Positions 1,259-12,245 of a DNA stretch of 38,862 bases are shown in pieces. The stretch is from an uncultured Rhizobiaceae bacterium (GTDB taxonomy: Bacteria > Pseudomonadota > Alphaproteobacteria > Rhizobiales > Rhizobiaceae), in contig CATOTF010000001.1 in NCBI GenBank assembly GCA_951813045.1, positions 351,956-390,817 of the forward strand, given 5' to 3'. The notes beneath the pieces were generated by a model. That model saw only the letters and a program-made list of their open reading frames with translations, made no database searches and had not been told where the DNA came from. Numbering within the stretch: the first letter of the stretch is position 1; each line of letters begins with the position of its first letter. The translations under genes and the position numbers were made by a program.

Positions 1259-2029
1259 TTAATCCTTACGGAAAATGACGCTGGCGAGCCAGCCTGTAGC
1301 GATCGCGATAATAACTGCGATTATTCCAAACAATAAGCCGTTTCGATGCGCAAGATCGTAAGTAAACTGCTCAAAACCGATTTTTTTGACCTGCATCTCA
1401 GCAAATTGTGCATTTACAAACTTGCCCTCTTTGAACAGGAATGCCTGGGCAGTGTGGCGACCAATGGGGACATTGGCCGGGACAGAAAGTGTCGCTTTGA
1501 AAAGTGACGGACTTAAGAACTTCACACCGCCAATGCTCTCGCTATAGAGATTTTGCGACAGTTTGAGGCGGTTTAACGATTCTTTGAAGACCTTTTCTTC
1601 CCCAATAGCATCGAAATCTTCGTCGGGAACAACGTTGAGATTCTCAAGCCCGATCTGCAGGATTTTTACATCGTTGGAATCGCTGATTTCTGCCAAAGGT
1701 CTGGTCGTGGCAACCGAGTAGGAAGAAGGAACGTCCCCAAAACGCAGTGACGAACCGTTCACCCAGATGCCAAATTTATTTTCCTTTCGACGGACGATAA
1801 CTTCTTCTTTGGGACCGACCAATACGACAACAATATCATATTTCCCGTCTACAAGTGCTTGTTTGTCCGCATTTTCAATGGACCCGAACACGACAATATC
1901 CGTTCCATCGAAACTCGAAGATATCTCTACAGTTTCCCGCGACAAGCCTATTTGTACGTCGGTTTTTACCTGAGCCTGCACTACGGACATAAATAGTAAA
2001 AACGAAATTGACAGCAGCAGCGATCTCAT
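1259..2029 (-). CDS. TIGR02186-type membrane-anchored protein, partner of TauE exporter
   Basis: A 256-residue protein with an N-terminal signal peptide (MRSLLLSISFLLFMSVVQAQ), a long periplasmic part, and one C-terminal membrane helix (GLLFGIIAVIIAIATGWLAS) ending in a short basic tail. The periplasmic part starts VKTDVQIGLSRETVEISSSF and contains DIVVVLVGPKE and LFKATLSVPANVPIGRHTAQAFLFKEG. This architecture is that of the TIGR02186 family, of unknown function, which I know to sit next to TauE/SafE exporters. The ATG at 2029-2027 shares one base with the TGA of the upstream gene, so translation is coupled. A longer frame begins at 2104 inside the upstream gene but lacks a signal peptide start. 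An accessory role in sulfur-compound export is inference from context. Confidence 0.75.
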   Translation of the reverse strand: MRSLLLSISFLLFMSVVQAQVKTDVQIGLSRETVEISSSFDGTDIVVFGSIENADKQALVDGKYDIVVVLVGPKEEVIVRRKENKFGIWVNGSSLRFGDVPSSYSVATTRPLAEISDSNDVKILQIGLENLNVVPDEDFDAIGEEKVFKESLNRLKLSQNLYSESIGGVKFLSPSLFKATLSVPANVPIGRHTAQAFLFKEGKFVNAQFAEMQVKKIGFEQFTYDLAHRNGLLFGIIAVIIAIATGWLASVIFRKD

Positions 2030-2952
2030 CAGTGACCGGCTCCACCACCGATTGAAAACAACTCGGTCGGCATATTGATCAAATCCCACCCAAGTCTGAT
2101 ACATACCGCCAGAACGATTAGCCCGAGCAAGGCGCGAAGCTGTTCACCTTTAAGTTTCTGCCCCGCTTGAGCACCAAACTGTGCGCCAATCACCCCGCCA
2201 ACCATCAAGATAAAGGCTAGCACGATATCGACGGTCTGGTTTGTGGCTGACTGGGCGATTGTTGTTAACATCGTCACAAACATGATCTGAAACAACGACG
2301 TTCCAATCACGACATTAGTTGGAACGCGCAGAAGATAAATCATAGCTGGCACCATGATGAAGCCGCCGCCGACCCCCATGATGGAAGCTAAAACACCAAC
2401 AAGCATACCCAAGACCAATACCGGAATTACACTCAAATACAGCTTGGATTTATGAAACCTCATTTTGAAAGGCAGGTTTGAAATCCAGGTGTATTGTTTT
2501 GGCAGTTCTGTCGGAGTATCCGAATTTCCCCTATTCTTGCGAATGGCATTAAGGCTCTCAACAATCATCAAGGAGCCGATGGTGCCGAGGAACACCACGT
2601 AAAGAATTGATATTATCAGATCGAGCTGACCAGCGCTTCGCAGAGACGAAAATATCGCAACCCCGATCATTGAACCGGTGATACCTCCGACAAGGAGCAT
2701 TGTTCCAAGTTTTATGTCGACTGTTCCACGCCTGAAGTGGGCTAACGCTCCAGAAAAGGAGGAAGCGACAATCTGATTTGCTTCAGTTGCCACCGCCACC
2801 GCGGGAGGGATGTTGTAAAATATCAAAAGCGGCGTCATCAGGAAGCCTCCACCGACACCGAACATGCCCGATAGAAAACCCACACCTGCTCCCATGCCGA
2901 AAAGCACAAAAATGTTCACCGACATCTCGGCAATAGGTAAATAAATATTCAC
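2029..2952 (-). CDS. TauE/SafE family sulfite exporter
   Basis: A 307-residue integral membrane protein with about eight hydrophobic segments. It has the two internal half-repeats typical of TauE/SafE, each opening with GVGGGF (residues 32-37 and 193-198) followed by a TPLL or VPAM segment. The family exports sulfite, sulfoacetate or related organic sulfur anions across the inner membrane. Length agrees with the family. Its stop overlaps the start of the TIGR02186 gene, so the two probably form one unit. No sulfur-metabolism enzyme is nearby, so the substrate is not fixed. The 184 bases between this start and the end of the PodJ-like gene contain no gene I can support. Confidence 0.87.
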   Translation of the reverse strand: MNIYLPIAEMSVNIFVLFGMGAGVGFLSGMFGVGGGFLMTPLLIFYNIPPAVAVATEANQIVASSFSGALAHFRRGTVDIKLGTMLLVGGITGSMIGVAIFSSLRSAGQLDLIISILYVVFLGTIGSLMIVESLNAIRKNRGNSDTPTELPKQYTWISNLPFKMRFHKSKLYLSVIPVLVLGMLVGVLASIMGVGGGFIMVPAMIYLLRVPTNVVIGTSLFQIMFVTMLTTIAQSATNQTVDIVLAFILMVGGVIGAQFGAQAGQKLKGEQLRALLGLIVLAVCIRLGWDLINMPTELFSIGGGAGH

Positions 2953-3136: not shown

Positions 3137-4754
3137 TCAAGTTTGTATATCAAGCGCTTTTAGGAGCCTCGTATCAACCGCTCCGGTAACTGGAATACCG
3201 GCGCCACGTTGGAACTCAATGATCGCTTTTTTAGTTTTTGGGCCCATCAGTCCATCCGGCTCTCCAACACTAAATCCCCGTTGATTTAGCAGTGCCTGAG
3301 CTTGTTTTATGGGAGAGTTGGTGGAAACTGCTGCAGATTGTTTGGACGAACCGCCTCTTCCGCGCCATTCTTCAGGAACTGCAACCCGGTTGGCTTCAAC
3401 ATTAAGTTTTCGCGGAGCCCAATTGTTAACTTCCTTACGTGCTTCATCCAGATCATCTGGATCCATCGCATTGGCAACTTCATCGCGTTTCTTACCGGCG
3501 TCGTTATCACCAGTTTTCGCAGCAAGAGCGAACCACTTATAGGATTCGCCTAAGTTTTGCGGAACACCCATACCCTGACCATAAAGAATGCCCAAATTGA
3601 ATTGGCTGTCTTTGATCCCAAAGTTGGCAGCTTTTTGAAACCATTCAACCGCACGCTCAATATTAGGCTGGATTTCCGGTGGGTTACCCATGGCCTGAAT
3701 AACCGCAAGATTGTGCATCGCGCGAGCATTGCCTTGAGCGGCGGCCTTCTCATACCATTTCGAAGCCATAGTGATGTCGCGTTCAACACCAATACCTTTT
3801 TCGTAGAGACTGCCAATTGAATATTGTGCGGGTGCAAACCCAACATCAGCTGAACGCTGGAACCATTTAGCGGACTCACTCATATTACGGGTAACGGTAT
3901 CGCCTTCAGAATAGCGCATACCAAGTTGGAACAGGGCTTTTGCATCGCCCGACGAGGCTGCGGCAACCAATGCTGCAGGGCCTGAACCTGTTGGGACGTC
4001 ATAAACTGCCGAAGGCGTTTCAGATTTTGCTTTCTCCTGAACAACGGGAGGTGCTTCAACCGCTACATTTGCTTTCTCCAGGACCTTACTTATTGGGTTT
4101 TTAACCGGTGAAGGAATCGCGAGTTCTGACGCATTCGTTTCTGGTGAAGCCTTGGCGGTAAAACCATCTGATGCCAAATCAGACTCAGCGGTCAGGTTTT
4201 TCATCAACTCGTTGTAGTTGGTTCCATTTGCTGTATCGGGCGCTCCGTTGCTTTGATTTGTTGGATTGCCCGAATCTTCGGTTGCGTTTTCAACGTTGTT
4301 GAGAATCTTTTCGTATGCCTCTGAGACCTGCGACGCCTGTGGCGACGTTTCATTCGTTGCATTTCCAATTTCTCTAACCTGCGACTTAGCGGTTGCAGCT
4401 TCCGAGACCTGCACGTCCTTCATTTTTGCAACTTGGGTATTTTTACCGCCTGTAATGATGGTGTATCCTTTGAATGCGACAATCGCGAGCAACAATGCAG
4501 CCGCTCCCATTACCAGCGGTTTGCGCAATTTGGACATATCAAAATTTGGTATCAACGCTTCCAGTTTGTCTTTTAGGCCACCGGACCTCGCTTTCTTTTC
4601 GCTGGTCACAACCTCATCACGGACAGCATTCATTTCTGCAGTTGTTGCTTGGAGAGCCCGTCTTGCAGCAGCTACAGCATCGGGGCGAATTTCATCGTCT
4701 CCGCCTAGTTCCGGTTGAAGACGCTGTGGCTCCAGATTGCCATTTGAGTTGGTA
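3137..4754 (-). pseudogene. PodJ-like polar localisation protein, C-terminal half (cut off by IS insertion)
   Basis: The open frame runs from the IS boundary to 3137. It begins in mid-protein with NSNGNLEPQRLQPELGGDDE and DAVAAARRALQATTAEMNA. A single membrane helix follows (VMGAAALLLAIVAFKGYTII), then a low-complexity Asn/Glu/Ala-rich stretch, at least four Sel1-like repeats (such as FQLGMRYSEGDTVTRNMSESAKWFQRSAD and later copies), and a C-terminal peptidoglycan-binding domain (QALLNQRGFSVGEPDGLMGPKTKKAIIEF). Together with the upstream coiled-coil half this is the architecture of PodJ-type polarity factors. An internal ATG at 4633 could start a truncated membrane-Sel1-PGB protein of 498 residues, but it has lost its coiled coil and promoter. 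The gene is very likely inactive unless the IS supplies transcription. Confidence 0.85.
4752..4754. repeat. Target-site duplication GTA, left copy
   Basis: The three bases GTA directly left of the IS terminus reappear directly right of its other terminus at 6385-6387. Deleting the element plus one copy restores the PodJ-like reading frame, which confirms the boundary. Confidence 0.8.
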
Positions 4755-4792
4755 TGGACTTGTCCCGTATTAATTCCGCATCCTGTTCTCGT

Positions 4793-5650
4793 TTAACTCG
4801 TTTTTCGTTCAAATTTGATGGGCGACATTCCTCCTATTGCTGAGTGTCTTCTGCGGCTGTTGTAAAAGCCGTTGATGTATTGGAACAGGGCGTCGGTTGC
4901 TTGCTGTCGTGTTTGCCATGTGCCGCGCCAGATGAGTTCGGCTTTGAGTGTTTTGAAGAACGTCTCGACCACGGCGTTGTCCCAGCAATTGCCTTTTCGG
5001 CTCATGGACACTTTAAACTTCAGTTCACGCATTCGTTTTTGATAATCATGAGAGCAGTATTGACTGCCACGGTCCGTATGATGAATGCAGCCCGGCGGTG
5101 GGTTTCGAAGGGCCAAAGCCCGGTTGAGAGCCTGCAATGCCAAGTCTTTCTTCAACCGGTTGCTGACAGCCCAACCCACCACACGGCGTGAATGTAGATC
5201 GATCATCACTGCCAGATACAGCCAGCCCTCACGGGTCCAGATGTAGCTGATGTCACCTGCCCATTTCTGGTTGGGTTTATCCGCTTGGAAGTTCCGCCCC
5301 AGCAAGTTAGGCGCAATGTTGAAGCGGTGATTGCTATCGGTCGTAGCTTTGTATTTGCGTGTTCTGACCACTCGAATGCCGTTGTCGCGCATCAGGCGGC
5401 CAACACGGCGGTGACCAATAGCAAGGCCGGCTTCCTTCAACTCCTGCGTCATTCTCGGGCGACCATAACTGCCAAGGCTCAAGTGATGCTGTTCACGGAT
5501 GTGCGCCAGAACCACCATGTCATCGCGCTGCCGTTGACTAACAGGGCGGTTGTGCCAGGCACGATAACCACGCGATGTAACATTCAGAATATGGCAAAGC
5601 CGATCCACCGGAACGTGTTTCCTGTGTTCTTCGACAAACGCAAATCTCAC
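4793..5650 (-). CDS. IS3-family transposase OrfB (DDE integrase domain)
   Basis: A 285-residue catalytic subunit. It shows an HTH_21-like N-terminal part (ILNVTSRGYRAWHNRPVSQRQRDD, then YGRPRMTQELKEAGLAIGHRRVGRLMRDNGI) and an rve integrase core with the DDE triad in WAGDISYIW, HHTDRGSQYCS and DNAVVETFFKTLKAEL. It starts with GTG at 5650 overlapping the orfA stop by the sequence GTGA, in the -1 frame relative to orfA. Production by -1 frameshifting as an OrfAB fusion, usual in this family, or by coupled reinitiation are both possible. I did not see a clear A6G slippery run. The frame is complete, so this copy may be active. Confidence 0.92.
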   Translation of the reverse strand: MRFAFVEEHRKHVPVDRLCHILNVTSRGYRAWHNRPVSQRQRDDMVVLAHIREQHHLSLGSYGRPRMTQELKEAGLAIGHRRVGRLMRDNGIRVVRTRKYKATTDSNHRFNIAPNLLGRNFQADKPNQKWAGDISYIWTREGWLYLAVMIDLHSRRVVGWAVSNRLKKDLALQALNRALALRNPPPGCIHHTDRGSQYCSHDYQKRMRELKFKVSMSRKGNCWDNAVVETFFKTLKAELIWRGTWQTRQQATDALFQYINGFYNSRRRHSAIGGMSPIKFERKTS

Positions 5651-5985
5651 TTGCTTTGACCCGCGAAGAACACTGTTGCCTTCTTTAATATCTCCCTCTC
5701 CTCCGTGAGGAGACGAACCTCTCTGCGAAGCCGCTCATTCTCTTTGGCCAGATCAATATCAACCGATGGTGGAAGGTCATCAGGCCGGGATTGTTGTATC
5801 CATTTCGATAACGTCGAAAAGCCGACCCCCAAATCTGATGCCACTTGTTTCCGGGTAAGTCCGCTGGTCAGCGCAATACGCACCGCTTCACGCTTGAATT
5901 CGTCTGTGTGGCCTCGTGCCATAATAGTTCTCCTTGATGGGATTAATCCAATTCAAGGACACGGAACCAAACCGTGACAAGTCCA
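5587..5985. repeat. 399-bp direct repeat, copy 1 (inside full-length IS)
   Basis: This segment reappears directly adjacent at 5986-6384. The two differ at one base that I found: C at 5968 versus T at 6367, inside the terminal inverted repeat. The junction at 5985/5986 joins the IS terminus (...GTCCA) to an internal orfB sequence (GAATATGG...), with only the two bases CA shared at the junction. Confidence 0.9.
5647..5922 (-). CDS. IS3-family transposase OrfA, copy 1 (paired with OrfB)
   Basis: A 91-residue DNA-binding subunit with an N-terminal helix-turn-helix (DEFKREAVRIALTSGLTRKQ, then VASDLGVGFSTLSKWI) and a C-terminal leucine-zipper-like segment (LAKENERLRREVRLLTEEREILKKA) ending FFAGQSK. 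It belongs to the HTH_Tnp_1 family. The ATG at 5922 is preceded by AAGGAGAAC, a good ribosome binding site. It overlaps orfB by four bases. The predicted protein is identical to copy 2 at 6046-6321. Confidence 0.9.
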   Translation of the reverse strand: MARGHTDEFKREAVRIALTSGLTRKQVASDLGVGFSTLSKWIQQSRPDDLPPSVDIDLAKENERLRREVRLLTEEREILKKATVFFAGQSK

Positions 5986-6384
5986 GAATATGGCAAAGCC
6001 GATCCACCGGAACGTGTTTCCTGTGTTCTTCGACAAACGCAAATCTCACTTGCTTTGACCCGCGAAGAACACTGTTGCCTTCTTTAATATCTCCCTCTCC
6101 TCCGTGAGGAGACGAACCTCTCTGCGAAGCCGCTCATTCTCTTTGGCCAGATCAATATCAACCGATGGTGGAAGGTCATCAGGCCGGGATTGTTGTATCC
6201 ATTTCGATAACGTCGAAAAGCCGACCCCCAAATCTGATGCCACTTGTTTCCGGGTAAGTCCGCTGGTCAGCGCAATACGCACCGCTTCACGCTTGAATTC
6301 GTCTGTGTGGCCTCGTGCCATAATAGTTCTCCTTGATGGGATTAATCCAATTCAAGGACACGGAACTAAACCGTGACAAGTCCA
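5986..6384. repeat. 399-bp direct repeat, copy 2 (tandem tail of the IS)
   Basis: A second copy of the IS right end, including orfA, its ribosome binding site and a terminal inverted repeat. It also carries the first 21 or so codons of orfB, truncated at the join with copy 1. It is the side of the insertion that touches the N-terminal PodJ-like half. Confidence 0.9.
6046..6321 (-). CDS. IS3-family transposase OrfA, duplicated copy without an OrfB
   Basis: The protein is identical over all 91 residues to the OrfA at 5647-5922 and has the same upstream AAGGAGAAC site. The following orfB copy is truncated after about 21 codons (MRFAFVEEHRKHVPV...) where copy 1 of the repeat begins, so this copy cannot make a transposase. 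In IS3 elements free OrfA often represses transposition. An extra orfA could therefore damp activity of the element, which is inference from the family and not visible here. Confidence 0.85.
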   Translation of the reverse strand: MARGHTDEFKREAVRIALTSGLTRKQVASDLGVGFSTLSKWIQQSRPDDLPPSVDIDLAKENERLRREVRLLTEEREILKKATVFFAGQSK

Positions 6385-6387
6385 GTA
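6385..6387. repeat. Target-site duplication GTA, right copy
   Basis: Matches the GTA at 4752-4754 on the other side of the IS. It lies directly after the outer inverted-repeat terminus (...GACAAGTCCA). Confidence 0.8.
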
Positions 6388-7134
6388 TCAATACTTTCAG
6401 CCTCAGGTTTATCTTGACCTAAGTTTCCAACGACATTGTTCGCAGTACTACTCACATCACCTACTGCAACCCCCGGCTCCAGAGGAGTGTTGTCATAAAG
6501 TGACGCCTGATTGAGGTGAGCGGTTGGGTCGATTGAAGGTGCATCAACCTTCATCTTCCCTGGCTCACCCATTAAATCAGCAGGCTGTTGGTTCACGCCG
6601 GATTGTTCATGACGGGGTGCTGCTTCCATCAAACTATCAGCCGCGAACGCAGCTTCATTGGTTTGATTTTCCATCGCTGCCACAGATGAAGGTTGTATGG
6701 CGGGCTCGCCATTAGATACAAATGCATCCCGACTTGGCGTCGATGGCGCAGCAATCACAGTCGCCGGACGTGTTGCCACTTCCTCCATTGTATTTTCAAT
6801 CGTGCCAAGACGCTCTGCGACCTGTTGCAGTGTGGACTGGACGTGAAGAACTGATTCTGCGTTTTGCGCATTCCCGCTTTCAGCGGCGATCTGAAGGCTT
6901 TTCAAGTCTTGAGACAAGGCATCGATGATCTGAGCTGACTCGCTTTGAGGACCCATCATGGCGACAGCTTGTTGTGCTGCTTGCTGTGCGGCTTCCAACG
7001 AGAAGTTTTGAGTATTGAGCAATTGATTTTCGATTTGGCTTAACCGGGCTTCAACAGGCGTAAAGTCGACTGTAGTTCCAGCGTCCACATTGTTTAGATG
7101 ATGGAAAATCTGTCCAATCTGCGCTTCCAGATTA

Positions 7135-7743
7135 GACATTTGCGCGGAGCTTGCATCAACATTTGCTGCTTCCTGTACTTGCGACGACAATAATGAAATC
7201 TGTTCTTCAAACGTATTTGTCTGGGATTGTGCAACAGCAGCATTGACATTTGTCGCTTCCTCTAGGCGAGCTGACAGGCCCGCGATTTGCGCCTCAAGCG
7301 TATGAGACTGGGACTGGGCAATAGCGGAATTAACATTTGCCGCTTCCTCTACTCGGGCTGACAGACCAGCAATCTGCTCCTCAAGCGTGTTTGTCTTGGA
7401 GTTTACAATGGCTGAATTTACATTTGCCGCTTCTTCGACACGAGCTGATAAAATCGCGATCTGTTCTTCAAGTGCATTAGACTGCGACTGATTGAGAGTT
7501 GAATTGGAGTTTGTGGCTTTTTCTACCATTGCTGACAGTGTAGCAATTTGTTGCTCCAGCGAACTCGTTTGCGACAGGGCTACAGCTGAATTCGATTTTG
7601 CTGCCTCATCAATGCGAGCTGACAATAATGCTATTTTATGCTCAAGAGAGTTGGGCTGAGACAAGGCATTGGCGGAATTAACATTAGTAGCTTCTTCAAC
7701 GAGAGCGGAAAGCGACGCTATTTGTTGTTCCAGAGTACTAGTC
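7135..7743 (-). repeat. Seven tandem 87-bp repeats in the PodJ-like coiled coil
   Basis: On the minus strand the protein shows seven consecutive 29-residue units with the pattern LExQIaxLSArVEEAaNvNSAxAxSQt. At the DNA level the phrase CTCAAGCG recurs at 7293 and 7380, exactly 87 bases apart. Units are diverged, so this is an old amplification. The 29-residue period is compatible with a continuous coiled coil with a stutter. Confidence 0.8.
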
Positions 7744-9248
7744 TTGGATAAACCTTCTGACGTTTTAGTGCTCAACGCTTCTTCCATGCGTGTGGTTAAT
7801 TTCGCGATCTGATCCTCAAGTGCATCAGTTTGCAGTTGATCCGTTGCAGCCTCAATTCGCGAACTAATCTCGCGCAACTGATCTTCAATAACGCCGGTAT
7901 CCGGTGAAGCTAGCATAGCGTTGGCATTACCCAAATCACCAGCTTCAGCATATTTTTCGAATGAACCCAATCGGTCGGTCAAGCCATCAATACGAACAGC
8001 GAGATTGTCCAGCTGGGGGCCGTTATCCTGTTCTACAACCGAGTCAATTGAGCGCGCGAGTTCTGTCATACGCGCTTCCACGCGATCAAGTGCCGAGAGG
8101 TCGACATCTGGGGTACTGCGGCCAACATTGGATACGGCAACCAAAGCACGCGCAACTTCATCCAGTCGATTTTCAATGGACGATAGATCAATTTCCGATA
8201 CTGGCAATGCGCGAGCGACTTCATCTAACCGGCTTTCAACGGATGATAAATCGAGGTCGACTTTAGGCACGCCGGCCTGAGCTTGTACCTGCGCCTGAAT
8301 TGCGACAGAGCTGGACAATTGCTCCATCTTTGACGCCATTTCTGCGAGCTGTTTTTCCAGCTGGGTGATGGCCAATGTCTGTGGCAGGTCGTCAATAATT
8401 GTTTGCAGGGAGTGGAGTTGTGCACCCAGCTGCTCGACCCGTGGGCCAACCTGATTGGCAGTTTGAATTGAAACCTGATCCAGGTTTCTGGCGAGCTCAT
8501 CAAACCGGGATTTTATTTCACCATATTCCGCATTGTTTTGAGAACGGCTATGGGACTGAATCGCAGATTCAACATCCTTTGCCATTGTGCTGCGTAGATG
8601 ATCAATCTCTCTGGTGAGTTGGTCAAAAGCCTTCTCGTTCGGGTTGTTCTGGGCCTGCAAATCAGCGATTGCATGGGCAATGCGGTCAATCTCCGACTGG
8701 GGAACCGATTGCTGAACAGCAACGGGTTTTGCCACTTCCTTTCGAAGGCTTGCCAGTTCATTTTTCAATGCAGCAAGTTCAGGCCCAATTATATCCTTTT
8801 TCGGCGCAGGTTCTGGTTTTGGTGCTGGTGGAGGTGTGTGCGCTTGGACGGCTGCTGCGTGCTGGTTCAACATGCGCTGACGGTTTGCAATTTCAGCAAC
8901 CGCAGAATTTTGCCTACCAAATTCGCCACTGTGACCCATGTGCGGAGGCATGCCGATGGGAGCCTGACCCCCAATTTGGCCGGAAAGTTGGTTGAGCTGC
9001 GCCTGAATTGCGCTCAGCTCAGAATTTGGTTGCAGGGGTGCCCCTGTTCCAAGTCCGTGTTGTTGAACTTGTGGGTGTGCATAGGGTGGCACGACTGGCG
9101 GGGCAGAATGAAGACGTTGTTCAATTGCGCCAATAGCTCGTTTTAAGTTTGCGATACGATCAGGGTCTGACCCGGAATTATATCCGTTGCCGGGGCCGGA
9201 AACATATGATGGATTGTAGCCAGGGGCTCCAGGATACGCTGCACGCAT

Positions 9249-9538
9249 AGAACTATTCTCACATTTGTGTCGGTCGAGTACCGACAAGGCACAATTGGGC
9301 CAAGGCGCAATTATATTTGGGGCCACTTTCGCCAATCATAGTAAACAGGGCGTTAATTGTTCTTAATTGAGGACAATTGATTGACCATTTGAGTGAGAAA
9401 ACGTTGCAACAAGCACATGGGATTTGACTTCATTGTATTAATTTATCAGAAATGGTTGAATGGCTTTTGGGGGGAGAGTCCAATTCCAGGTTTTTGAAAA
9501 GCCGGGCTCGGAGACACTATCGGAAACAAAGTGAACTC
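9249..9538. other. Divergent intergenic region between PodJ-like gene and MerR regulator
   Basis: This AT-richer 290-base stretch must hold the promoters of both divergent genes. I see no clear sigma-70 pair and no palindrome comparable to the one at 10271. A frame beginning at 9452 extends the MerR gene upstream but has no conserved content. Confidence 0.4.
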
Positions 9539-9964
9539 ATGCAAAATTCTGACATTATTGAAAGTCGGTCGAACCCCTATAAACCGATCGAACATGCCGA
9601 ACAGAGGGTCTATAAAATTGGTGATCTTGCACGCGAATTCGACGTTACCCTGAGAACTCTGCGTTTTTACGAAGACCGCGGACTCATTAATCCAGGGCGC
9701 TCCGGAACAACCCGCCTATATAGCTCGGAGGACCGGGAACGCCTTCGCGTCGCTCTATTTTGCAAGCGTATCGGTTTGTCATTGGGCGATATCCGTCAAG
9801 TGCTGGATTTGCACGAACAAAATGACCGGGACGCTACAACCACCAATAGGATACGACAGGTTTACCTGTCTCAACTGTCTGCGCTGGAGCTTCAGCAACA
9901 GGAAACGATGGAAACTATCGCCGATTTAAAAGGCAAGCTGGCCGAAATGGATAATCAATCCTAA
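9539..9964 (+). CDS. MerR-family transcriptional regulator of the fatty-acid oxidation operon (LiuR-like)
   Basis: A 141-residue regulator counted from the ATG at 9539. It has a MerR winged helix (YKIGDLAREFDVTLRTLRFYED, then RGLINPGRSGTTRLYSSEDRERL), the second helix pair (CKRIGLSLGDIRQVLDL) and a long C-terminal dimerisation helix (LSALELQQQETMETIADLKGKLAEM). No cysteine pair of the metal-sensing MerR type is seen, so the ligand is probably organic or an acyl-CoA. The gene precedes acyl-CoA dehydrogenases in the same direction. A palindrome lies in between at 10271-10286. MerR proteins of the LiuR group control branched-chain and acyl-CoA catabolism in proteobacteria; the assignment here is inference from context and the site. 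A longer frame starts at 9452. Confidence 0.82.
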   Translation: MQNSDIIESRSNPYKPIEHAEQRVYKIGDLAREFDVTLRTLRFYEDRGLINPGRSGTTRLYSSEDRERLRVALFCKRIGLSLGDIRQVLDLHEQNDRDATTTNRIRQVYLSQLSALELQQQETMETIADLKGKLAEMDNQS

Positions 9965-10448: not shown

Positions 10449-12245
10449 ATGCCCACATATCGTGCCCCAATAGAAGACAGTCTGTTTATTCTCAATGACG
10501 TGCTGAATATCGCCCGTTACAATAACCTTCCCGGTTTTGAAGACGCCACACCCGATACTGTTGAAGCCATTTTGGGTGAAGCAGGAAAAATGGCGGAAGA
10601 GGTTCTCCAGCCGCTCAATGAAGTGGGAGATACCCAAGGTTGCACGTGGCACGAAGACCATACGGTCACTACACCTAATGGTTTCAAGGAAGCCTATGAT
10701 CTTTACTCAGAATCCGGTTGGGGTGCCCTGCCCTTCCCCGAAGAATATGGCGGTCAAGGCCTTCCAGCGACCCTAAATGCGGCTGTGCAGGAATATGTAT
10801 CTTCCGCCAATATGGCCTTTGGCATGTATCCCGGCCTCACCGCGGGTGCTGCAGCGGCCCTGATCACCCACGCATCGGACGAGCAAAAAGCAGCTTACGT
10901 CCCAAAAATGTTGTCTGGAGAATGGTCCGGCACGATGAACCTGACCGAACCCCATTGCGGTACGGACCTTGGGTTGATGCGCACGAAAGCCGTTCCCCAG
11001 GACGACGGAACTTACAAGATTTCCGGCCAGAAGATCTGGATTTCCGCTGGTGAACACGACATGTCCAACAACATCATCCATCTGGTCTTGGCGCGGATTG
11101 AAGGTGCGCCGGAAGGCGTGGACGGCATATCCCTGTTTGTCGCCCCAAAATACCTGCTTGACGGGGACGGTAATCCCGGTGAACGCAACGGTATGACGTG
11201 TGGCTCGCTCGAACATAAAATGGGCATTAACGGCAACGCCACCTGCGTCATGAATTACGACGAAGCTACTGGCTTTCTCGTGGGCACAGAACACCGCGGG
11301 CTTAAGGCCATGTTTGTGATGATGAATGAAGCCCGTCTTGGAGTGGGCATTCAGGGACTTTCACAATCTGAAGTTGCCTATCAAAACGCAGCGGACTGGG
11401 CCCGCGAACGGGTCCAGGGACGGTCCATTTCCGGCACAAAATTCCCTGATCAAAAAGCTGACCCGATTATCGTTCACCCGGATATTCGCCGCGTTCTAAT
11501 GACCGCCCGCTCTTTCAACGAATCCGCCCGAGCTCTGGCCTATTGGACCGCACTTCAGGGGGATTTAAGCCACCGAAGCGACGATGATGAAGTCCGTCAG
11601 GCGGCGGATGATTTCATGGGACTTCTAACCCCCGTGGTAAAAGGTGTTATCACCGACACGGGCTTCGATAATGCTGTTCGCGCTCAGCAAGTGTTCGGCG
11701 GTACCGGATACACCAAAGAACAGGGGGTTGAACAATTTGTGCGCGATGCCCGCATCGCAATGATCTACGAAGGCGCCAATGGCATTCAGGCACTTGATCT
11801 TGTCGGTCGCAAGCTACCATCAAAAGGTGGTCGCGCTGTTCAGGCTTATTTCAAAGAGGTCGGCAAATTCTGTTCAGCCCACAAAGATAATGACGAGATG
11901 AAACCCTATATCGAGCCGCTTTCAAAAGCACTCTCTGATTTGCAAACCGCAACCATGTGGCTGGTGCAAAACGGCATGGCCAATCCGGACAATGCCGGTG
12001 CGGCCTCCACCGATTATATGCATCTGTTCGGCCTTGTGGCGCTTGGCCACATGTGGGGCATGATGGCGGCAACTGCGCAGGAAAAACTGGCGACTGGTGA
12101 CGAAGGCTCCAAACAGTTTCTTGAAAACAAACTGCTGACTGGAAAATTCTTTATGGAACGGATTATCCCGGAAAGCGCCACACATCTGGTTCGCATTCAA
12201 ACCGGTGCGGATACGATGATGGCCTTGGATGCGGAGGCGTTTTAA
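10449..12245 (+). CDS. Acyl-CoA dehydrogenase, large type with C-terminal extension (DmdC/FadE-like family)
   Basis: A 598-residue flavoprotein, about 200 residues longer than a standard acyl-CoA dehydrogenase. The extra length is an N-terminal segment (YRAPIEDSLFILNDVLNI) and a C-terminal domain after residue 455. Recognisable parts are the FAD/substrate loop MNLTEPHCGTDLGLM (163-177), GQKIWISAGEHD (193-204) and the C-terminal motif MIYEGANGIQALDLVGRKL, with Glu441 as the likely catalytic base. The reaction is alpha-beta dehydrogenation of an acyl-CoA thioester, passing electrons to ETF. DmdC (methylmercaptopropionyl-CoA dehydrogenase) belongs to the same subfamily, so the chain-length or thioether preference is open. 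It is the first gene of the operon, with two bases between its stop and the next start. Confidence 0.92.
   Translation: MPTYRAPIEDSLFILNDVLNIARYNNLPGFEDATPDTVEAILGEAGKMAEEVLQPLNEVGDTQGCTWHEDHTVTTPNGFKEAYDLYSESGWGALPFPEEYGGQGLPATLNAAVQEYVSSANMAFGMYPGLTAGAAAALITHASDEQKAAYVPKMLSGEWSGTMNLTEPHCGTDLGLMRTKAVPQDDGTYKISGQKIWISAGEHDMSNNIIHLVLARIEGAPEGVDGISLFVAPKYLLDGDGNPGERNGMTCGSLEHKMGINGNATCVMNYDEATGFLVGTEHRGLKAMFVMMNEARLGVGIQGLSQSEVAYQNAADWARERVQGRSISGTKFPDQKADPIIVHPDIRRVLMTARSFNESARALAYWTALQGDLSHRSDDDEVRQAADDFMGLLTPVVKGVITDTGFDNAVRAQQVFGGTGYTKEQGVEQFVRDARIAMIYEGANGIQALDLVGRKLPSKGGRAVQAYFKEVGKFCSAHKDNDEMKPYIEPLSKALSDLQTATMWLVQNGMANPDNAGAASTDYMHLFGLVALGHMWGMMAATAQEKLATGDEGSKQFLENKLLTGKFFMERIIPESATHLVRIQTGADTMMALDAEAF

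Follow-up and report, generated by a model that had tools for sequence, protein, structure and literature searches.

The stretch analysed here (the window, 38,862 nucleotides from an uncultured Rhizobiaceae bacterium) makes up the right end of the 390,817-base contig C1, one of the two contigs of a 4.84-Mb genome designated G000; throughout, G-numbers denote genomes and L-numbers denote fetched loci or records. On its minus strand lies podJ, a gene for a PodJ-type polarity protein, in two halves separated by insertion sequence (IS) DNA of the IS3 family. The features of the locus, in the direction of podJ transcription, are as follows.

6385..9248, minus strand: N-terminal half of podJ (coiled-coil and linker part), with its ATG at 9248; homologous to the N parts in 13 of the 14 other genomes of the genus
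7125..7820, minus strand: eight repeats of 29 residues each within the coiled-coil part, with motif starts at residues 477-680 and an exact spacing of 29
6385..6387: right copy of the GTA target-site duplication
5986..6384, minus strand: 399-bp 5' piece of a second IS copy, with the majority variant A at IS position 18 and its left end at 6384
4755..5985, minus strand: complete IS3-family element of 1231 bp with ends TGGACTTGTC and G at IS position 18, above the cut-off of NCBIfam NF033516
5647..5922, minus strand: orfA (HTH_Tnp_1) of the complete IS
4793..5650, minus strand: orfB transposase (rve domain) of the complete IS
4752..4754: left copy of the GTA target-site duplication
3137..4754, minus strand: C-terminal half of podJ (putative anchor, Sel1 repeats, and PG_binding_1), with Pfam matches to Sel1 (E 1.4e-35) and PG_binding_1 (E 1.6e-16)

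An earlier note on this DNA had proposed a PodJ-type gene split by an IS, and the domains of the halves, the IS3-family match, and the GTA duplication all bear this out. In the C half, a linker precedes a hydrophobic segment, after which come the Sel1 repeats and PG_binding_1. Sel1 (in 4 stretches) and PG_binding_1 both score above the Pfam cut-off, and the hydrophobic stretch between the two parts, a candidate membrane anchor, was spotted by eye in the translation. The coiled coil of the N half is suggested by its repeats and by a sub-cut-off match to SMC. The break falls in a poorly conserved linker, just ahead of the putative membrane anchor. The earlier note had placed the insert at 4752-6384; an IS insertion it is, but the insert proper covers 4755-6384 (1630 bases), is flanked by exact copies of GTA, and is composite.

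The coordinates, the minus strand, and the in-frame join of 4479 bases were confirmed by recounting. From the ATG at 9248 to the last base ahead of the duplication there are 2861 bases, and the C side including one GTA has 1618, so that removal of the insert with one GTA leaves 4479 in-phase bases, or 1493 codons including the stop (1492 before it). The join is free of stops, as claimed, each half being stop-free in its own frame. Across the insertion site this frame runs for 1520 codons from stop to stop; the runner-up among the six frames has 134. As the sequence now stands, the open reading frame of the N half continues for five residues (GLVTV) into the IS, ends at a stop at 6366-6368, and encodes 960 amino acids (aa) in all. 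The matches listed for the genome (3 of 4) include no second PodJ, only the gene itself and two matches at the level of Sel1 repeats, the better with E 8.8e-12.

The C part was looked for in 40 relatives, namely all 14 other genomes of the genus (15 with G000), 10 of the same family, and 16 of the same order; the nearest relatives are only ~60% identical. By 16S, the top row listed from a plasmid collection is 93.9% to Phyllobacterium, with one further record in the 95-99% band, and the organism is described simply as Rhizobiaceae-type. In a scan of a collection of genome contigs, the one podJ-level hit was L091, from a metagenome-assembled genome of the same genus. In 13 of the 14 same-genus genomes there is a podJ-level match whose single open frame (1007-1440 aa) holds the C part and, in all 13, the N part too. 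These are the uninterrupted alleles that the earlier note had suggested looking for, and close relatives with podJ as two separate genes, which would have spoken against its proposal, number 0 of the 13. A naturally split gene was rejected, as the same-genus genomes contradict it. The remaining genome of the genus, G014 (0.9 Mb, one contig), has a weak match alone (E 9.4e-5); it has no match to FliF, FlhA, or DUF2497, either. Farther out, the C part lies in one long open frame in 7 of the 10 family genomes (the matches in G019, G020, and G022 are weaker) and in one open frame of 904-1520 aa in 14 of the 16 order genomes, G027 having a weak match only. Among named Rhizobiaceae records, Shinella (1308 aa) and Neorhizobium (1105 aa) have the gene in one frame each.

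The genes around podJ are also largely conserved. They include the following.

10449..12245, plus strand: acyl-CoA dehydrogenase (598 residues), a conserved neighbour
9452..9964, plus strand: MerR-type regulator, upstream of podJ
2029..2952, minus strand: TauE/SafE permease, conserved, downstream of podJ
1259..2104, minus strand: Alph_Pro_TM protein, a conserved neighbour

In the 20 fetched loci, TauE is found downstream of the C part in all 20 and the Alph_Pro_TM protein in 19, the exception (L032) stopping at its contig end. The acyl-CoA dehydrogenase is found in 17 (not in L033 and L034, which both stop at a contig end on that side, or in L047) and MerR in 11. The Sinorhizobium meliloti record L116 has an unannotated gap at this gene, flanked, as here, by an acyl-CoA dehydrogenase on one side and TauE with TIGR02186 on the other; we take the gene in this gap to be S. 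meliloti podJ1. The PodJ proteins of Agrobacterium tumefaciens (Atu0499) and S. meliloti (PodJ1) come from a related group, and we take both species to belong to the same Genome Taxonomy Database (GTDB) family as this genome.

The transposase of the insert is of the IS3 type (NF033516, E 6.7e-107, above the cut-off), and PF01527 is above its cut-off for orfA. As in the IS3 family generally, an orfA with HTH_Tnp_1 is combined with an orfB with rve, here overlapping in different frames, between terminal inverted repeats (TGGACTTGTC), and the copies in this genome are flanked by duplications of 3 bp and in some cases 4 bp. A single-copy insert was rejected, as the complete element is preceded, upstream in the direction of its transposase, by the 399-bp piece, which differs from it at a single base, IS position 18 (G in the complete copy, A in the piece). 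At L053:5683-7739 there is a second composite, in which 826 bp from an A18 copy run straight into a complete G18 copy and the outer flanks carry a GAC duplication. It is built like the one in podJ but has another breakpoint, and in both composites the inner junction is the exact end of the complete copy. This feature points to transposition into a resident copy, and plain unequal crossing-over was set aside as the source of the partial copy. The simplest reading of the podJ composite is that a majority-type (A18) copy probably landed in podJ first, creating the GTA duplication; a G18-type copy would then have transposed into this resident copy near its position 400, after which the two direct copies, overlapping in sequence, would have recombined and the remainder of the first copy been lost. 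The locus thus appears to have taken at least one further transposition after the initial insertion, and probably recombination too.

The insertion in podJ is part of a wider burst. G000 contains at least 40 complete copies of this IS, a lower bound, as 40 of 75 candidates were scored in the genome search. Of the 40 copies read, which include the window copy, 4 match that copy exactly, and the other 35 differ from it at a single base, which is IS position 18 in every case. Target duplications of 3 bp flank 15 copies and duplications of 4 bp another 3, with neither in 22 (the two composites were scored by their outer flanks). A long frame (a minimum of 200 codons, and of 75 to either side of the site) is interrupted by 11 of the 18 copies with a duplication and by 0 of the 22 without one; the 11 are the window copy, L056, L063, L065, the second copy in L066, L067, L069, L083, L084, L087, and L088. 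When one piece of each of the ten non-podJ frames was scanned, Pfam matches were found in eight (transglutaminase-like, UPF0176/rhodanese, AAA_16 with cyclase, GTA_TIM, DsbD, transposase, PmbA/TldD, and Oxidored_FMN) and none in two.

Some IS copies have flanks that appear to have been exchanged. L057 and L077 (contig C2, at about 1,668,000 and 1,908,000) lack duplications of their own. The left flank of L057 and the right flank of L077 have GAG in common and carry two EamA transporter pieces, ~239 kb apart, and the left flank of L077 and the right flank of L057 have TTT in common. The 25 sites that lack a 3-bp duplication form 600 ordered pairs, of which 12 have a triplet in common, close to the 9.4 (600/64) expected by chance, so the case for this pair depends on its being reciprocal and on the EamA pieces. 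Since these two loci exchange flanks, recombination between IS copies has probably rearranged the genome. At L066, one IS copy cuts a cyclase/AAA_16 gene whose later part lies between the two IS copies there, and the gene appears to go on at the flank of L075, with a common TAA, as if it had been cut by two IS copies and then rearranged.

No near-identical IS was seen outside G000, in either a plasmid collection or the same-genus genomes. The top row of the plasmid collection has 72.3% identity over the full IS length, and the best piece is at 80-90% in 78 of its 1846 records. Related elements in the same-genus genomes are 78-86% identical where the alignment is long and, at short ends, up to 96%. 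Two of these genomes, G002 and G011, have many short related IS ends, mostly 80-94% identical and often located at contig ends, which suggests IS expansion in other members of the genus as well.

The earlier note had called the insertion recent and its halves undecayed, and the identity comparison supports this. Measured against 7 outgroups from the family, the C half of G000 averages 35.8% identity; the 13 intact homologues range over 34.5-38.7%, and G000 is the second lowest of the 14. The N half has 33.8% to three distant same-genus homologues, against 32.0-35.0% for 10 homologues. Neither half thus displays clear decay, and this, together with the near identity of the IS copies, argues for a recent insertion. 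The 29-residue repeats are probably older than the burst, as they have diverged from one another (Tandem Repeats Finder reports a period of 87 over 7198-7490 with 72% matches). Their motif has one match in 10 of 20 relatives and none in the other 10, against eight in G000, so that they look like a lineage-specific expansion in a polar scaffold.

Caulobacter crescentus PodJ (974 aa) is described as having the same layout of coiled coils, linker, anchor, Sel1/TPR-like repeats, and peptidoglycan-binding domain, and PodJL is proteolysed to PodJS (residues 1-702) (PMC8980812). The comparison is with this published description; the Caulobacter protein is split by a protease, whereas here the split is by a DNA insertion, and the 29-residue repeats are extra by the same comparison. 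The N fragment encoded in G000 stops ahead of the putative anchor, as does the Caulobacter laboratory construct PodJ(1-635), which, although anchorless, accumulates at the poles and recruits PleC; the cytoplasmic and periplasmic parts of Caulobacter PodJ are each reported to be able to accumulate at the poles alone (PMC8980812). In Escherichia coli co-expression assays, the PodJ-PopZ interaction is kept after deletion of the periplasmic domain or of the intrinsically disordered region (IDR) (PMC10127582).

An N fragment could be made in G000, with 955 residues of PodJ itself and five contributed by the IS; it would contain the coiled coils and the linker but no anchor. The C fragment (putative anchor, Sel1 repeats, and peptidoglycan-binding domain) is detached from its native start and may be lost or weakly made from the ATG at 4633. 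This codon, named in the earlier note as a possible start, is indeed the earliest usual one (ATG, GTG, or TTG) in the C half, but expression from it is possible rather than supported. A scan for promoters of the sigma-70 type found no match at 4600-6500, and the Met encoded at 4633 is also the majority residue in intact homologues (consensus of 8 sequences) and hence is no evidence of a start. The most likely outcome is an untethered scaffold that works partly or not at all. The consequence that the earlier note drew from loss of the polarity factor is overstated; complete loss of PodJ is not certain, because the N fragment resembles the pole-reaching PodJ(1-635).

Comparison with relatives, then, shows an ancestrally single podJ (1492 codons before the stop), cut by a recent insertion of an IS3-family element in the course of an IS burst. 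To the whole account, including the composite insert and the untethered scaffold, we assign a probability of roughly 0.9. Several observations weigh against it. In the draft genome G033 (same order), a single in-frame stop separates pieces of 549 and 414 aa, and in two of the four named records (Sinorhizobium L116 and L117) the N and C parts lie in different overlapping frames, which could reflect either a sequencing error or a real frameshift. Outside the genus, a whole-genome search matched the N part in 3 of 26 genomes (G021, G024, and G039), so continuity there depends on frame length. The order of the IS events depends on one diagnostic base and the junctions, and the production and fate of the fragments are predicted from the sequence. 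The cases of G033, L116, and L117 would fit a view in which the halves have always been separate genes with an IS between them by chance. This has a near-zero probability, given the single frame in 13 of the 13 same-genus genomes that have the gene, the occurrence of the C part within one long frame in 7 genomes of the family and 14 of the order, the single frame in two of the four named records, and the fit of frame and duplication to one ancestral gene. Likewise, the insertion is known from the assembled sequence, and an element of 1231 bp with 40 or more nearly identical copies is a hard repeat, at which an assembler could misplace an IS or merge a population in which only part of the cells carry it at podJ. 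Such a fault or heterogeneity is very improbable in view of the exact target duplication, the partial copy with its different base, the related flanks on both sides, and the position of the IS copies internal to an assembly of just two contigs.

A further alternative accepts the insertion and differs as to its effect: podJ might now work as two genes, the N part as an untethered polar scaffold and the C part as a separate membrane/periplasmic protein made from the ATG at 4633, with polarity largely kept. The position of the break in a poorly conserved linker ahead of the anchor, the lack of clear decay in the halves, and the behaviour of the Caulobacter parts and of the PodJ-PopZ interaction in E. 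coli are all compatible with it. So is the DUF2497 match of G000, which lies in a 274-aa open frame; 10 of the 14 other genus genomes have such a match in frames of their own, and we take DUF2497 to be the PopZ family. This alternative is nevertheless rather unlikely, as the start at 4633 has neither a promoter-like match nearby nor a telling Met, and, with so recent an insertion, frames that are still open do not signal selection. Somewhat more doubtful is the idea of a lineage that apparently lacks flagella and no longer needs a tethered PodJ, and in which the IS has yielded two working parts: a soluble PodJ(1-635)-like scaffold and a separate membrane/periplasmic Sel1-peptidoglycan-binding protein.

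If the untethered scaffold is indeed defective, pole splitting and faults of division and the envelope are plausible in this group. podJ of A. tumefaciens and podJ1 of S. meliloti are treated in the literature as working genes, unlike the interrupted one here; podJ deletion in Agrobacterium leads to growth-pole splitting, constriction faults, and minicells (PMC5686542), and in S. meliloti the envelope of podJ1 mutants is defective (PMC10659215). The effects on flagellum placement and motility suggested in the earlier note do not hold up: neither FliF nor FlhA has a match in the G000 genome or in 9 other genomes of the genus (both are present in the same 5 of 15), and a flagellar fault is therefore not plausible. 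To our knowledge, stalks are not expected in Rhizobiaceae.

The event itself is an ordinary gene disruption by an IS, a mechanism already known in kind; a literature search, limited to titles, turned up none on an IS-split podJ allele. What the locus offers is a natural insertion allele of podJ whose breakpoint immediately precedes the putative anchor, in a genus of which 13 of the 14 other genomes have the gene whole, along with a record of an IS burst that, among the sites read, has split ten other long frames and has probably rearranged genes, and of a second composite IS locus. The strain, if in culture, could provide a natural test of an anchorless PodJ truncation.

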